Of a DNA stretch of 64,000 nt, positions 35,759-41,778 are shown in pieces (the stretch's first letter is position 1; each line of letters opens with the position of its first letter). The translations under genes were made by a program, and so were the position numbers. Origin of the DNA: Natronomonas gomsonensis (GTDB taxonomy: Archaea > Halobacteriota > Halobacteria > Halobacteriales > Haloarculaceae); NCBI RefSeq assembly GCF_024300825.1, contig NZ_CP101323.1, forward strand, positions 2,418,001 to 2,482,000, in the 5' to 3' direction. Under the pieces are notes generated by a model that saw only the letters and a list, made by a program, of their open reading frames with translations, was not told the origin of the DNA and did not search any database.

Positions 35759-35802
35759 CCCAGCGCCGAACGATTCATACCTCGGTGGCCGACACTGTGG
35801 GT

Positions 35803-37146
35803 ATGACTCACGGCCCGACACGACGACGCTTCCTCGGCGCTGCAGCGACCGCCCTCGGCGTGAGCGTCGCCGGCTGTAATGTCTTCGACGGCAACGGAAC
35901 GCCCCCCGACGGTCGCACGGACGCGCCAGGGTCGGACGCTGGAACGTCCGACGCCGCCCTCCCCGAGTCGGTCGCCCTCGAAACGCTCGTTTCGGGACTC
36001 GATGCCCCGCTCGATATCCGGTTTTCGCCCGATGCCGACCGCCGCTACGTCGCCGAACAGCAGGGGCTCGTCCACGTCCACGAGAGTGGGGGACTCCGAG
36101 CGGAACCGCTCCTCGACCTCCGGGAAACCGTCGACTTCGGCGGCGAAAAGGGATTGCTCGGCATCGAACTCCACCCCGACTTCGCCGAGACCCGCCGGTT
36201 GTTCGTCCGCTACAGTTCCCCGCGGCGGGAGGGAACGCCGTCGAACTACAGCCACACCTTCGTCCTCGCCGAGTTCGAGGTGCGCGAGGACGGCCGCCGC
36301 GTCCGTGCCGACTCCGAACGGACCGTCCTCGAAATCCCCCAACCGCAGGGCAACCACAACGCCGGCGACCTCGCATTCGGACCCGACGGCTACCTCTACG
36401 TCGCCGTCGGCGACGGCGGTGCCGGCGGCGACCAGGGGCGGGGCCACGTCGACGATTGGTACGACGGCGTCGCCGGCGGCAACGGACAGGACGTGACGGA
36501 GAACCTGCTCGGTAGCATCCTCCGACTCGACGTCGACGCCGGCGGACGCGGGGACTACGAGGTTCCCGACGACAACCCGCTCGTCGGCCGCGAGGGACTC
36601 GACGAACAGTTCGCGTGGGGATTGCGCAACCCCTATCGGATGTCCTTCGACGGTGCGGAGTTGTTCGTCGGCGACGTGGGGCAGAGTCGCTACGAGGAAA
36701 TCAACCTCGTCACGGCGGGCGGCAACTACGGCTGGAACGTCCGCGAGGGCGCCCACTGCTATGAAGCCGACGAGTGCCCGACCGAGACGCCACCAGATGT
36801 TCGCGGTAGCGAGGCGCTCGTCGACCCCATCGTGGAGTATCCACACTCGGATGCCGCAGTCGGCGGTATCTCCGTCATCGGCGGGTACGTCTACCGCGGG
36901 TCGGCCGTCGAGGGACTCGGCGGCGCTTACGTCTTCGGCGACCTGCAGGCCAACGGTCGGCTGTTCGTCGCCACCCGTCCCGACGAGGGACGCACGTGGC
37001 CGACGCGAGCGGTTTCACTCGCCAGTGACGCGGATGAGCGACTCCAGCGAGTCCTCTCGTTCGGCCGGGACGGCGACGGCGAGGTGTACGTTCTCGGGCT
37101 GGGGTCGGAGGGTGGTGCGGTCCACCGGCTCGTGGCCGCGGAGTGA
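35803..37146 (+). CDS. PQQ-dependent sugar dehydrogenase, Tat lipoprotein
   Basis: A 447-residue extracellular six-bladed beta-propeller of the soluble aldose dehydrogenase type. The ATG at 35803 gives a Tat lipoprotein signal: TRRRFLGAAATALGVSVAGC, with the cysteine at residue 25. GNHNAGDLAFGPDGYLYVAV (starting near residue 185) is the signature with the active-site His region, and LRNPYRMSFDG and QSRYEEINLV are further propeller motifs. The family oxidises sugars using PQQ and passes electrons onward. PQQ synthesis genes are not in this window, so the cofactor source is unknown. Converges on the lipoprotein operon. Confidence 0.87.
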   Translation: MTHGPTRRRFLGAAATALGVSVAGCNVFDGNGTPPDGRTDAPGSDAGTSDAALPESVALETLVSGLDAPLDIRFSPDADRRYVAEQQGLVHVHESGGLRAEPLLDLRETVDFGGEKGLLGIELHPDFAETRRLFVRYSSPRREGTPSNYSHTFVLAEFEVREDGRRVRADSERTVLEIPQPQGNHNAGDLAFGPDGYLYVAVGDGGAGGDQGRGHVDDWYDGVAGGNGQDVTENLLGSILRLDVDAGGRGDYEVPDDNPLVGREGLDEQFAWGLRNPYRMSFDGAELFVGDVGQSRYEEINLVTAGGNYGWNVREGAHCYEADECPTETPPDVRGSEALVDPIVEYPHSDAAVGGISVIGGYVYRGSAVEGLGGAYVFGDLQANGRLFVATRPDEGRTWPTRAVSLASDADERLQRVLSFGRDGDGEVYVLGLGSEGGAVHRLVAAE

Positions 37147-37161: not shown

Positions 37162-39588
37162 TCAGCCAACCCGGTGTTCGACGCAGTCCTCGTCGGCTGG
37201 ACGCTGTGGCGTCGATAGTTCGACGCAGTTCTGAGCGGTGTCGTCCTCGCCGGGCCAGGAGTCAGCGCCGGTGACTTCAACCGAAACACGGAGCACGGGG
37301 AGACAGTCGCCTGCTTCGAGTCCGACCGCGTCGTAACGGGCACGGAACCGACTGCCACCGGAAGCGGGGTCGACCGTCCAGCCGTCTCCCTCGGCGGCAG
37401 CGAACGTCATCCCATCGGGAAGTTCGTCGGTCAACTCGACGAACTCCTCATCGCAGCCGCCCTCGCCGACGTTGCACACCTCGAAGGCGTACGTTCCCGT
37501 TTCCCCGTACTCGAAGCGACTTGCAACCCGCTTTTCGACGGCGAGTTCACACTCCCCTTCGTGGCCGACGACCGGGTGTCGGACGCAGTCGTCGTCTATG
37601 GCCTCCCCATCGTGCTCCAGACGGACGCAGTTCTCGGCGACGTCACCATCGGGCCACTTCTCTGGGTCGGGGAGTTCGACGTCGAGGGTCAGAGCGGACA
37701 GACAGTCGCTTGGTGGGAGTCCGCCCGCGTTGTCGTGTCGGCAGACGACCGACCCGCCCTGCTGCTGACAGTCCCACCCGACCCCGGCGTCTCCAGCCAA
37801 GTTCATCCCCTCTGGGAGGTCGTCGGTCACCTCGATTGGCCCCTCACAGCGCCCCCCTCCGTCGTTGCACACCTCGATTCGATACTGACCCGTCTCCCCG
37901 AGATGGAACTCGCCCTCGGCTGTTTTCCTCACGGAGAGGTCGCACTCACCGGCCGGGTCGCCACCGTCGCCGGCACAGCAGTACCGAACCCTGAGGGTCG
38001 CGAAGTCGACGGCTGTGTCGTCTTGGACGTGGATGTCCAGCCGGCCGTGGTTGTTCAACACCGGTAGCAGGTCCGTCGTCGAGCCGTCGGCCTCCGGCAG
38101 TTCAGAGAGGTCAAGCGTGAGGCAACGCTCGCCGGTGTCGTCGGCGTCCCACTGGGTATCGAAGACGCCCGGCGAGCCGTCGTGGTTGCCAAGATAGCGG
38201 CTCCAGCGGCCCAACTCCGAGCCGTCGTCGTCCCAGACGCCGAGATTGATTCGGTCGTTGGTGTCGAGACTGCTTCCCTCCGGCCGGAGACAGAGTTCGA
38301 GTTCAGCGTCACAGATATCGCCGACCTCACGGGAGGGTCGAAGTTCGTCGAACGTGTGGCCGAAGTGGGTGTTGATACCCGATTCGTCGAACCCGTCGAA
38401 CGGCCCGGGCCACCGCGCCTGAATGCCTTGACTCGGCGCGGCGGGTTCGGCGTTCCCCGTATCGAAGTCGTCGTCGACGCCGGCCTCGAAGGTGCGTTCG
38501 CCTTCGACGCAGGGACGCGTGCAGTCGCGGTCGTTGTGCGGTTCCGCCCCGCCAGTTAGCAACTCGGCGCAGTTCGAGACGCCGTTTTCGGCCGGGAAAT
38601 CACCGAACGGGGCTACCGAAACGTCGATTCGGAGCGATGGCAGACACTCCCCGGGAGCGAGTCCGTTCGGGTTGGGGTGGGTCGCCTCGACGCGTCCTCC
38701 AGTAACACCGACGTTCCACCCCGGCCCGGACGCGGCCTGGAAGTCGACACCGGCAGGCAACTCGTCTTCGAGCTCGATGGCCTGCTCGCAGTCGCCGTCA
38801 CCCGCGTTGCACACTTCGAGACGGTATGTACCCGTCTCGTCGAACTCGAAGGGCCCTTCGTGTGTCTTCTCGACGGTGAGGTCACACGACCCACGACAGC
38901 ACTCGCCGTTGCTCGCTGTCACTGTCCCGATGAGGTTCAGCCCCGTTACGACGGCGGCGGTGTCCCGAACGACGACTGTCAGGAAGTTTTCACCGGACTG
39001 AAAGAACCGCCGGTATCGCTGGCCGTATCGTTCCTCGATAGGCGGTCCCGAGAAGCTCCCAGTACCGCTGAACGGCAGGGAGTTGCCGTTCAGTTGGATG
39101 TCCTCGACGGCGTCGTCGGCCCGCAGCCGCAACTCCAGCTCCGGCTCGCTGAACCCCTCGCTCAGACAGAAGCAGTAAGTGTACTCGAAGGTCTCGGTGT
39201 CATGGCTGAGACCACCACCGCCGCCGCAGGCGACTGAAACCCACTGACTGTCCGGAAATGGCCCGGCCCACGCTGGGTCGGGGTTGATGACATCTGCTGG
39301 GCGTGAAGTGGGGCCGTGGATGACATCCTCGTGGGTAATCTCCCAGTCGTCGTCGGCACTACACGGACCGATGGTCGAATCCGAGGACTGGTCGTAGCCC
39401 GTGTTGAGGACGTACTCGGCGTCCGGACAGGGCCGGTCGTCGCTGGGGGTCTCCGTCGGCGTCACCGTCGGCCTGTCGGTTGGCGTAGCGGTCGGGTCAC
39501 CGCCGTTACAGCCGGCCAGTGCCGCCGCGCCACCGACACCGACGGCCTGTAGGATTCGCCGTCGCGACAACGTCGGTTCGTCGCTCAT
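37162..39588 (-). CDS. Cysteine-rich Tat lipoprotein with three DUF11-like repeats
   Basis: An 808-residue surface protein. SRRRILQAVGVGG and AALAGC give a Tat lipoprotein signal with Cys27 modified, followed by a Thr/Pro-rich spacer. Three modules share the pattern CDLTVEKTHEG / CDLSVRKTAEG / CELAVEKRVAS, then GETGTYxxEVCN...GDC and a D/E-rich DELPxGM strand (starting near residues 235, 555 and 690). They resemble DUF11 beta-sandwich repeats. Between repeats 1 and 2 is a module with a jelly-roll look. I count 34 cysteines, remarkable for an exported haloarchaeal protein and suggesting many disulfides or metal sites. It is the last gene of an operon with the two genes upstream. Confidence 0.75.
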   Translation of the reverse strand: MSDEPTLSRRRILQAVGVGGAAALAGCNGGDPTATPTDRPTVTPTETPSDDRPCPDAEYVLNTGYDQSSDSTIGPCSADDDWEITHEDVIHGPTSRPADVINPDPAWAGPFPDSQWVSVACGGGGGLSHDTETFEYTYCFCLSEGFSEPELELRLRADDAVEDIQLNGNSLPFSGTGSFSGPPIEERYGQRYRRFFQSGENFLTVVVRDTAAVVTGLNLIGTVTASNGECCRGSCDLTVEKTHEGPFEFDETGTYRLEVCNAGDGDCEQAIELEDELPAGVDFQAASGPGWNVGVTGGRVEATHPNPNGLAPGECLPSLRIDVSVAPFGDFPAENGVSNCAELLTGGAEPHNDRDCTRPCVEGERTFEAGVDDDFDTGNAEPAAPSQGIQARWPGPFDGFDESGINTHFGHTFDELRPSREVGDICDAELELCLRPEGSSLDTNDRINLGVWDDDGSELGRWSRYLGNHDGSPGVFDTQWDADDTGERCLTLDLSELPEADGSTTDLLPVLNNHGRLDIHVQDDTAVDFATLRVRYCCAGDGGDPAGECDLSVRKTAEGEFHLGETGQYRIEVCNDGGGRCEGPIEVTDDLPEGMNLAGDAGVGWDCQQQGGSVVCRHDNAGGLPPSDCLSALTLDVELPDPEKWPDGDVAENCVRLEHDGEAIDDDCVRHPVVGHEGECELAVEKRVASRFEYGETGTYAFEVCNVGEGGCDEEFVELTDELPDGMTFAAAEGDGWTVDPASGGSRFRARYDAVGLEAGDCLPVLRVSVEVTGADSWPGEDDTAQNCVELSTPQRPADEDCVEHRVG

Positions 39589-40214
39589 GGCCGCAGCCTC
39601 GCTGCGCTCTTGTCGTGTTTCTTCCCCTCGGTGGTGGCGCGTTGCGTGTGTTTATCCTTCTTTTTCGCCCGTTTCGTTGCGGCCGCATTGGCGTCGTCTC
39701 CGTCACCGTGCAGCATCTTCTCGCCCTGCTTCGCGCCACGGGTCATAGTGAGGTCGTCGAACTCCGGTCGGGCGGCACTCTCCCCCATCAGTTCGCCGTT
39801 GCCGTCGAAACGCAGGTTCAGCGCGCGGTCGTTGGGCTCGCCATCGCCGCCGTCGGCCGCGCCGTCGTCATCGTCCCACAAAACGATGGTAATGACGATG
39901 GTTCCGTTGGGATACACCGTTACATCGATGGACGGTCCCGCCATCGCCACCGTGTCGTTGCTCCCGTCGCCGCCGTTGACGTTCACGGTCCTCCGATTCG
40001 CTTTCGTTCGTTCGGCCTCGGAGTCGTCAGTCGCGTTCGCGGCCGTGTTCGGAGTGGTGTGTCGGTCGTCTTCGGTCGTCCCGTGTCGGTCGTCTTCGGT
40101 CGTCCCGTGTCGGTCGTCTTCGGTCGCTCCCACCGCGACGGGAGCGACAAGTAGGCCGCTGACGAGCAGTGCTGCGAGCAGTACCGCGAGTCGTCGGTTG
40201 TTGATGTGGCTCAT
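39585..40214 (-). CDS. Exported protein with EDDRHGTT repeats and Lys-rich tail
   Basis: A 209-residue protein with an N-terminal signal (HINNRRLAVLLAALLVSGLL). Immediately after the predicted cleavage site is a tandem repeat EDDRHGTT x3 (24-bp DNA units). A hydrophobic beta-like stretch (IDVTVYPNGTIVITIVLW) follows, and the tail is Lys-rich (TKRAKKKDKHTQRA). The ATG at 40214 has a GAGGTG ribosome site just upstream. Its stop overlaps the start of the cysteine-rich lipoprotein (ATGA). Likely a secreted partner of that lipoprotein; family not recognised. Confidence 0.7.
   Translation of the reverse strand: MSHINNRRLAVLLAALLVSGLLVAPVAVGATEDDRHGTTEDDRHGTTEDDRHTTPNTAANATDDSEAERTKANRRTVNVNGGDGSNDTVAMAGPSIDVTVYPNGTIVITIVLWDDDDGAADGGDGEPNDRALNLRFDGNGELMGESAARPEFDDLTMTRGAKQGEKMLHGDGDDANAAATKRAKKKDKHTQRATTEGKKHDKSAARLRP
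40061..40130. repeat. Three tandem 24-bp units inside the exported protein gene
   Basis: TCGGTCGTCTTCGGTCGTCC is the start of each unit; the three copies begin at 40062, 40086 and 40110 and encode EDDRHGTT, with a variant last unit. Such units can expand or shrink by slippage. Confidence 0.8.
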
Positions 40215-40224
40215 CGTGGTCACC

Positions 40225-40392
40225 TCAGTCCATTTCCTCCAGTCGGACCGCCGCGTCGGACTGAATCCAGCGGTCGTCGTTCTCCCGGTCGTACACGAGC
40301 AGCCCGTCGTCATCGACGAGGCTGCCGTAGCGACCGAACATCGGTTCGTTGGCGCTGTGCGTCGAGTCGTCCACGTTTTCTGGTATGCTCAT
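40225..40392 (-). CDS. Small acidic protein, first gene of the lipoprotein operon
   Basis: A 55-residue protein ending DRWIQSDAAVRLEEMD, with MFGRYGSLVDDDGLLVYD in the middle. This looks like a widespread small haloarchaeal family (I think DUF7331, from memory). The ATG at 40392 follows a CGGAGG ribosome site, so it is preferred over earlier in-frame ATGs. TATA-like CTTTATACG lies at about 40517-40525, about 125-130 bases upstream. The gene ends 10 bases before the next start, making a three-gene operon. Confidence 0.7.
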   Translation of the reverse strand: MSIPENVDDSTHSANEPMFGRYGSLVDDDGLLVYDRENDDRWIQSDAAVRLEEMD

Positions 40393-40638
40393 TGTTTGTC
40401 CTCCGTCGTGGGCGTCCCCCGGACCCCTCCCGCAACCGCCGAGGGGTCGGCGGGACATCGCTAGTCTCTGGATACCGTTCGTCGCATCGCAATCGCTCAT
40501 ACCTGCCATACTATCGTATAAAGGGGCGATTCTGTGGGTGGATTTGAGCCACTCCAACCGAATCCAGCCGAATTTATCGAGCCGCAGTACTGTGGTTCCC
40601 CGTAACGCTCCGATACCGGTCTGTTGAACGGTAGAAAA

Positions 40639-40649
40639 ATTAATATACT
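40639..40649 (+). promoter_or_regulatory. TATA box of the membrane-anchored regulator gene
   Basis: ATTAATATACT lies 20-30 bases before the ATG at 40669, typical of leaderless initiation and a reason to prefer that ATG. Confidence 0.55.
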
Positions 40650-40668
40650 AGTATTCTATCCGGAAGAG

Positions 40669-41778
40669 ATGGTCTCGCGGTTTCGGCCGAAGGTTTACGG
40701 TACAGGCCGTAAATCGGTCGAATCGATGCACGGTATGTCGGGGGCCACCGTGTTGGTGGTCGCGGTCGTGGTTCTCGCTGTCGGGGGCGCCGCCGCTCCT
40801 GCGAGCGCCGCGTCGGGCGCGGACGCGTGGTCGTCACTGCAAAACGGGACGGACCTCGACCCCGACCGAGTCGTCACCGAGGTCGAGGTTCGACCCGACG
40901 GCTCGGCCCACTGGAGTGTAAACTACCGCGTTCGACTCGACAACGAGAGTGTGACCGACGCCTTCGAGGCGATTCGTGCGGATATCGCGGCCAACCGCCT
41001 CGAACGCGCGGGTCGGTTCAAACTCCGCACCGAATCGGTCCTTGCTGCTGCGGCCAACGAGACGGGCCGAGAGATGGAACTTCAGGAGGTGACCGTCCGG
41101 ACGGACCGGCGACAACCGCCGGGTACCTCAGAGGAGTACGGCGTCGTCACCTACGAGTTCGTGTGGACGAACTTCGCGACGACGACGGACGACGGACTCA
41201 CCGTCGGCGGCGCACTACCGGGGTTCTTCCTCACCGAGGACACGACGATGCTCCTCACGTGGCCCGAGGAATACCGACTGGTGGACGCTACGCCCGCCTC
41301 CGACGAGACCAGAGACGGCACGGTCGTCTGGAACGGTCCAAAGGAGTTCAGCACCGACGGTCCCCGCGTAGCCATCGAACCGACCGGCGGTTCGACGGGA
41401 ATCCCCGGTCCGGGAATCCCGGTGGTGGTGGCGGCTATTGTAGTTCTGACGGTCGTTTTGGGCGTGGGTTGGTATCGACGCGAGGAGGAGACAGACAGCG
41501 ACCCGGAGACGACGGCTGCCACGGAGCCAGTGGAAACGGCACCGTCGTCGGGTTCGGGGACGCCCTCTGAGGACCTGTTGAGCGACGAGGAGCAACTCCT
41601 TCGGCTGATTGAGGAACGCGGAGGGCGGATGAAACAACAGGACGCTGTCGAGGAACTGGAGTGGTCCGAGACCAAGACCAGTCAGGTCGTCACGGAACTG
41701 TACGAGGCCGAAAAAATCGAACGGTACCGACTCGGACGGGAGAACGTACTGGCGCTTCCGGGGGAGATGGACGTATGA
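40669..41778 (+). CDS. Membrane-anchored winged-helix protein
   Basis: A 369-residue protein with a signal-anchor near the start (SGATVLVVAVVVLAVGGAAA), an extracytoplasmic domain of about 200 residues, a second membrane segment (VVVAAIVVLTVVLGVGWYRR), a Thr/Glu-rich linker and a C-terminal winged helix of about 65 residues (LLSDEEQLLRLIEERGG... KTSQVVTELYEAEKIERY). It would sense outside signals and act on DNA from the membrane. I recall related haloarchaeal proteins with DUF7345 and DUF7343, but the names are unverified. The ATG at 40669 is chosen because of the TATA box 25 bases upstream. The next gene follows after 61 bases. Confidence 0.75.
   Translation: MVSRFRPKVYGTGRKSVESMHGMSGATVLVVAVVVLAVGGAAAPASAASGADAWSSLQNGTDLDPDRVVTEVEVRPDGSAHWSVNYRVRLDNESVTDAFEAIRADIAANRLERAGRFKLRTESVLAAAANETGREMELQEVTVRTDRRQPPGTSEEYGVVTYEFVWTNFATTTDDGLTVGGALPGFFLTEDTTMLLTWPEEYRLVDATPASDETRDGTVVWNGPKEFSTDGPRVAIEPTGGSTGIPGPGIPVVVAAIVVLTVVLGVGWYRREEETDSDPETTAATEPVETAPSSGSGTPSEDLLSDEEQLLRLIEERGGRMKQQDAVEELEWSETKTSQVVTELYEAEKIERYRLGRENVLALPGEMDV

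Follow-up and report, generated by a model that had tools for sequence, protein, structure and literature searches.

In the haloarchaeon Natronomonas gomsonensis, the last gene of a three-gene cluster (gene C) would encode a lipid-anchored protein of the stalk or adhesin type, in which an isopeptide bond plus three or four disulfides would hold each DUF11/CLIPPER module together. We give this reading a probability of roughly two in three. The domain identity, the fold, the conservation of residues, the paralogue and the relatives were computed, and from there we infer the bonds, the surface exposure and the adhesion role. There are precedents for the domain, for the anchor and for disulfides occurring alongside isopeptides; an invariant six-cysteine form in haloarchaeal Tat lipoproteins was not found described in the literature searched.

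Results

Layout of the locus

The window is a 64,000-nucleotide stretch of contig NZ_CP101323.1 (positions 2,418,001 to 2,482,000), and positions given below for the locus are those of the window. The first-pass annotation had read genes for a 55-aa protein, an exported protein and an 808-aa protein, the first two 10 bases apart and the last two overlapping in ATGA. The coordinates bear this out, with all three genes on the minus strand (Table 1): positions 40215-40224 separate genes A and B, and the stop codon TGA of gene B and the start codon ATG of gene C share the ATGA. Codon usage scored 0.33 for gene A in the named frame vs at most 0.03 in the other five frames, and 0.22 vs at most -0.04 for gene B, in which the final 50 codons, encoding the Lys-rich tail, were the weakest part (0.04).

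Table 1. Features of the A-B-C locus in window coordinates; residue numbers refer to the product of gene C.
Feature	Position	Strand	Description
Gene A	40392..40225	minus	55 aa; member of DUF7331 (PF24018, E 8e-9), which has four copies in the genome
Gene B	40214..39585	minus	209 aa; exported; EDDRHGTT repeats and Lys/Arg-rich tail; without convincing homologue
Gene C	39588..37162	minus	808-aa Tat lipoprotein, 34 Cys; three DUF11/CLIPPER modules of six or eight Cys and two more domains
Tat signal peptide and lipobox	39508..39588	minus	aa 1-27; SRRRILQ ... LAGC; Cys27 is the predicted lipid anchor
N-terminal domain	38890..39432	minus	aa 53-233; beta-rich; 7 Cys
DUF11/CLIPPER module 1	38521..38886	minus	aa 235-356; 6 Cys; triad K241/D275/N339
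Middle domain	37954..38511	minus	aa 360-545; 6 Cys
DUF11/CLIPPER module 2	37585..37944	minus	aa 549-668; 8 Cys, two of them the optional pair C607/C616; triad K555/D589/N653
DUF11/CLIPPER module 3	37183..37551	minus	aa 680-802; 6 Cys; triad K686/D721/N787

The ATG of gene A is directly preceded by GGAGG. With a TTTATA-like box about 125 bp ahead of gene A (40500-40530, minus strand), the untranslated leader would be about 100 nt, which is long for a haloarchaeal mRNA. On the plus strand, the divergent neighbour at 40624-41778 carries DUF7345 and DUF7343; it is a membrane protein with a winged-helix-like domain and a possible regulator of the A-B-C operon. The convergent neighbour at 35785-37146 (+) is of the glucose/sorbosone dehydrogenase type (PF07995) and, like gene C, has the signal of a Tat lipoprotein.

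Gene C carries a Tat lipoprotein signal and two extra domains

Cysteine is rare in haloarchaeal proteins. In the product of gene C it makes up 4.2% of the residues, vs 0.85% across the window's 41 other predicted proteins, an enrichment that is not due to chance. The earlier description of this product as a Tat lipoprotein with 34 cysteines is upheld: the RR motif and the lipobox Cys can be read directly from its N terminus and the relatives start with the same Tat/lipobox signal, with the Pfam TAT_signal profile staying below threshold on gene C (12.1 vs 22.7 bits). A Tat signal with a lipobox Cys is the usual anchoring route of haloarchaeal lipoproteins (PMC2945643). As judged from this signal and from the three CLIPPER modules, gene C appears to have the exported, surface-anchored, repeated-stalk build of a fibrillar adhesin.

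Module 1 is flanked by two unrelated domains, one after the signal peptide and one before module 2. Neither the N-terminal nor the middle domain matched a Pfam family, and no convincing solved chain was found for either by sequence. The model spanning both was poor (mean pLDDT 60) and too weak for a fold search of either. The N-terminal domain, with its odd number of cysteines (7), is common to seven relatives at 30-47% identity across this domain and module 1. A search for relatives of the middle domain across 391 class genomes, plasmids, phages and the PDB found none; weak matches in two genomes (G116 and G121) were discarded because their frames were out of step with ordinary genes.

The modules belong to the DUF11/CLIPPER family

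The HMM check that had been proposed for the 808-aa protein was run. Pfam DUF11 (PF01345) matched the whole protein in three stretches (E 4e-16; 59.8 bits vs a gathering score of 24.6) and the NCBIfam DUF11-type repeat TIGR01451 matched with E 9e-10, so that the three related repeats noticed at first are three DUF11 modules. Module 1 on its own scored 23.8 bits, just under the gathering score. In a profile search of the PDB, the crystallised CLIPPER domain 9ifr was matched with E 7e-6, and its Lys and Asp align with the Lys and Asp of the module.

The fold points the same way. Modules 2 and 3 were modelled by AlphaFold2 with pLDDT 93, and in a structure search a module from this model aligned with 9ifr over 119 of 123 residues (Z 14.5, rmsd 2.5 Å). 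When module 1 was taken from the model of mean pLDDT 60, in which most of the module scores about 76-93, the top row was again 9ifr (Z 14.0, rmsd 2.6 Å, 120 residues aligned). In these models the modules of gene C have the CnaA-like Ig beta-sandwich of DUF11/CLIPPER. Integrin rows, top by Z in the structure search, were not taken as kin; what they share is a general Ig-sandwich likeness, at 5-6 Å rmsd across two domains.

DUF11 is now called CLIPPER, an isopeptide-forming stalk domain of fibrillar adhesins with the triad Lys715/Asp748/Asn806, in which the Lys-Asp spacing is 33 and the Lys-Asn spacing 91; of all CLIPPER domains, 29.7% combine the isopeptide with disulfides (PMC12617251). The Lys, the catalytic Asp and the Asn, a triad which is not universal in DUF11, are all present in gene C, in the CLIPPER order and with spacings of 34-35 (Lys-Asp) and 98-101 (Lys-Asn).

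Six cysteines and the triad are invariant

All 62 modules (16 open frames, 14 genomes) have six Cys together with a Lys, an Asp and an Asn. Since the modules were cut out with a regular expression in which Cys1, Cys3 and, with one alternative residue permitted, Cys2 were mandatory, the invariance is free of selection bias only for Cys4-6 and the triad. An optional Cys pair at profile positions 60 and 69 is complete in 10 modules, wholly absent from 48 and represented by one Cys alone in 4. Ordinary DUF11 domains in 40 related genomes have 0-2 Cys per about 125 aa, and most canonical ones have Arg, not Lys. For this reason the Cys-rich modules are, on sequence grounds, a distinct DUF11 subfamily.

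Bacterial relatives with partial sets of cysteines offer a means of pairing them. Two modules from Saprospiraceae have Cys at positions 27 and 82 only. Two full modules from Ciceribacter have Cys at 105 and 121 together with 60 and 69, and lack those at 1, 27, 34 and 82, and in Synechococcus Cys 60 occurs with 69 or 71 only. These bacterial modules also have Cys at positions 14 and 20, which are absent from the haloarchaeal ones. In the model of modules 2-3, model residues 61 and 70, both Cys, lie opposite one another across a hairpin (strands 59-64 and 67-72). The likely pairs are C2-C4 and C5-C6, both assigned from the bacterial sets, C1-C3 by subtraction, and the optional pair of the hairpin; the scheme as a whole was built up from two or three bacterial proteins and by exclusion.

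It had been proposed that the repeats are linked by disulfides or by metal. A metal or redox cofactor held by these cysteines would make gene C an extracellular metal-binding or electron-transfer protein, as its high Cys content and the richness of its modules in acidic residues would allow. However, no CxxC-type pair or CxxCH motif occurs in the modules, the cysteines lie on separate strands, the bacterial relatives keep or lose theirs pairwise, and the optional pair is cross-strand within a hairpin. Metal binding was therefore rejected on the absence of the motifs, and we regard a cofactor-binding role as very improbable. The disulfide half of the proposal stands, since disulfides appear to explain the module cysteines best.

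Relatives are sparse Tat lipoproteins of several modules

A direct peptide scan of genome contigs and viral contigs with gene C gave no match, nor did phage records; an alignment of the paralogue and relatives was needed. The genome of N. gomsonensis holds one paralogue, a 703-aa frame (G000:C1:1743567-1745651). Six more genomes from its taxonomic family have a homologue, as do seven from other families of the order, and homologues were also found by name in Halorubrum, Halorientalis, Natronorubrum, Natrinema and Haloglomus. The family is sparse: it occurs in 7 of 146 genomes of the taxonomic family and in 10 of the 391 class genomes sampled, the latter count leaving out two spurious middle-domain hits. 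Each relative is a Tat lipoprotein containing three to six modules, a layout that counts for the stalk reading, and some of them have the N-terminal domain.

The closest homologue of gene C (G105:C76, 6210-9443, minus strand) is interrupted by a single in-frame TAG codon within its N-terminal-type domain, giving frames of 644 aa and 409 aa, which together resemble one protein. This assembly is incomplete (63% complete, 110 contigs), and the TAG may mark a pseudogene, a sequencing error or a real stop. In three genomes of one genus (G047, G048 and G049) the Cys-rich gene is preceded by a conserved gene with a LEFTIEADAFxLGRVL stretch, which resembles a regulator of the bacterio-opsin-activator type and is unrelated to genes A and B.

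The same cross-linked stalk could have another role, that of an envelope spacer or protective coat, whose modules would stabilise the cell envelope without an external ligand. Some relatives, namely the Halorubrum proteins and the paralogue in this genome, are CLIPPER modules alone, and DUF11 repeats have been reported in proteins proposed as part of an archaeal S-layer (PMC12617251). In contrast, gene C and several relatives carry non-CLIPPER domains, as expected of a stalk that presents a binding part. No recognised adhesive domain was found in gene C with Pfam or with a sequence search of solved chains, and an adhesion role is one that we would infer solely from the behaviour of the family. 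We consider the spacer role unlikely, without being far-fetched.

Genes A and B are probably local neighbours

Gene A scored 36.3 bits against the DUF7331 profile of Pfam (gathering score 27). DUF7331 is a common, scattered haloarchaeal family, present in 13 of 13 relatives tested and never near the Cys-rich gene; no paper on it was found in the literature searched. The features first ascribed to gene B, an exported protein with EDDRHGTT repeats and a Lys-rich tail, are all there: a Sec-type signal peptide is followed by EDDRHGTT EDDRHGTT EDDRHTTP, in the DNA three tandem copies of a 24-bp repeat (100, 100 and 92% identical), and then by the Lys/Arg-rich tail. Gene B matched no family and had no convincing homologue among 146 genomes of the family and 391 of the class. 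Weak matches at eight loci (L049-L054, L105 and L107) were rejected because the common part was signal peptide, acidic stretch or repeat only.

The first-pass annotation had taken the three genes for a surface assembly of their own, with the Lys-rich exported partner attached to the acidic lipoprotein or to the cell wall. In such an assembly the small acidic protein might be a regulator or chaperone. The operon-like spacing (10 bp and the ATGA overlap), the two exported products and the opposite charges of the tail of gene B and of gene C all fit such an assembly. However, its own test, conservation of the trio in other haloarchaea, came out against it: no homologue of A or B was found in the flanks of the Cys-rich gene (up to about 9 kb per side) in any of 13 other genomes, or near the paralogue in this genome. 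In addition, gene B is an orphan, and DUF7331 is a common and scattered family. We judge a dedicated three-gene assembly improbable. Because no homologue of A or B accompanies the Cys-rich gene in relatives, the trio is probably a local arrangement, with A and B as operon neighbours of gene C, not obligatory partners; the three genes may be functionally linked in N. gomsonensis alone. The estimates given for the different readings do not sum to one, since the spacer role and the three-gene assembly overlap with the preferred reading.

Discussion

In the preferred reading of a stapled, lipid-anchored stalk, gene C would be exported via Tat and anchored by Cys27, and its Ig-like DUF11/CLIPPER modules would extend it outward from the membrane, with the two extra domains as the likeliest binding parts. 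Each module would hold one Lys-Asn isopeptide, the Lys lying on the first strand, the catalytic Asp before LP and the Asn just before Cys5, together with three disulfides (C1-C3, C2-C4 and C5-C6), to which module 2 may add the optional fourth across its beta-hairpin. The result would be a rigid rod resisting protease and salt.

Tat exports folded proteins, and for this reason the cross-links might form before export. It is conceivable that these proteins make up a haloarchaeal family of Tat-exported CLIPPER stalks, with an isopeptide and three disulfides per module, that are stapled in the cytoplasm and exported in that state; we put this forward tentatively, at somewhat less than even odds. 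The family would make it easy to ask whether cross-links of either kind, isopeptide or disulfide, can precede Tat export. Such a sparse family, with six invariant cysteines and an intact triad in each module, would also reveal the way in which archaea keep long surface proteins stable in saturated salt. A 2025 survey (PMC12617251) rarely detected co-occurring domains in archaeal CLIPPER proteins, and the present family supplies such proteins with co-occurring domains outside Pfam.

The novelty first claimed for the locus needs dividing. The domains do have a structurally characterised relative, DUF11/CLIPPER, and it is their six-cysteine haloarchaeal Tat form that holds up as undescribed, no paper on Cys-rich haloarchaeal DUF11 proteins having been found in the literature searched. 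Among known systems, DUF7331 (PF24018) includes gene A by score, and only its position in the operon sets gene A apart. Haloarchaeal Tat lipoproteins (PMC2945643) share the export signal of gene C and differ in cargo. Ordinary haloarchaeal DUF11 domains, found in related genomes, belong to the same Pfam family as the modules of gene C and differ in their few cysteines and in the Arg that mostly stands at the place of the isopeptide Lys. A further comparison is with 9ifr, from the Acinetobacter silvestris fibrillar adhesin B9T28_05395, which has the same CnaA-like Ig fold, the same places for the Lys/Asp/Asn triad and exported tandem repeats. The CLIPPER domain of 9ifr has one CTTC motif, whereas the modules of gene C have six invariant cysteines, predicted to form three disulfides; and where the Acinetobacter protein follows bacterial export and sorting, gene C carries an archaeal Tat lipoprotein anchor.
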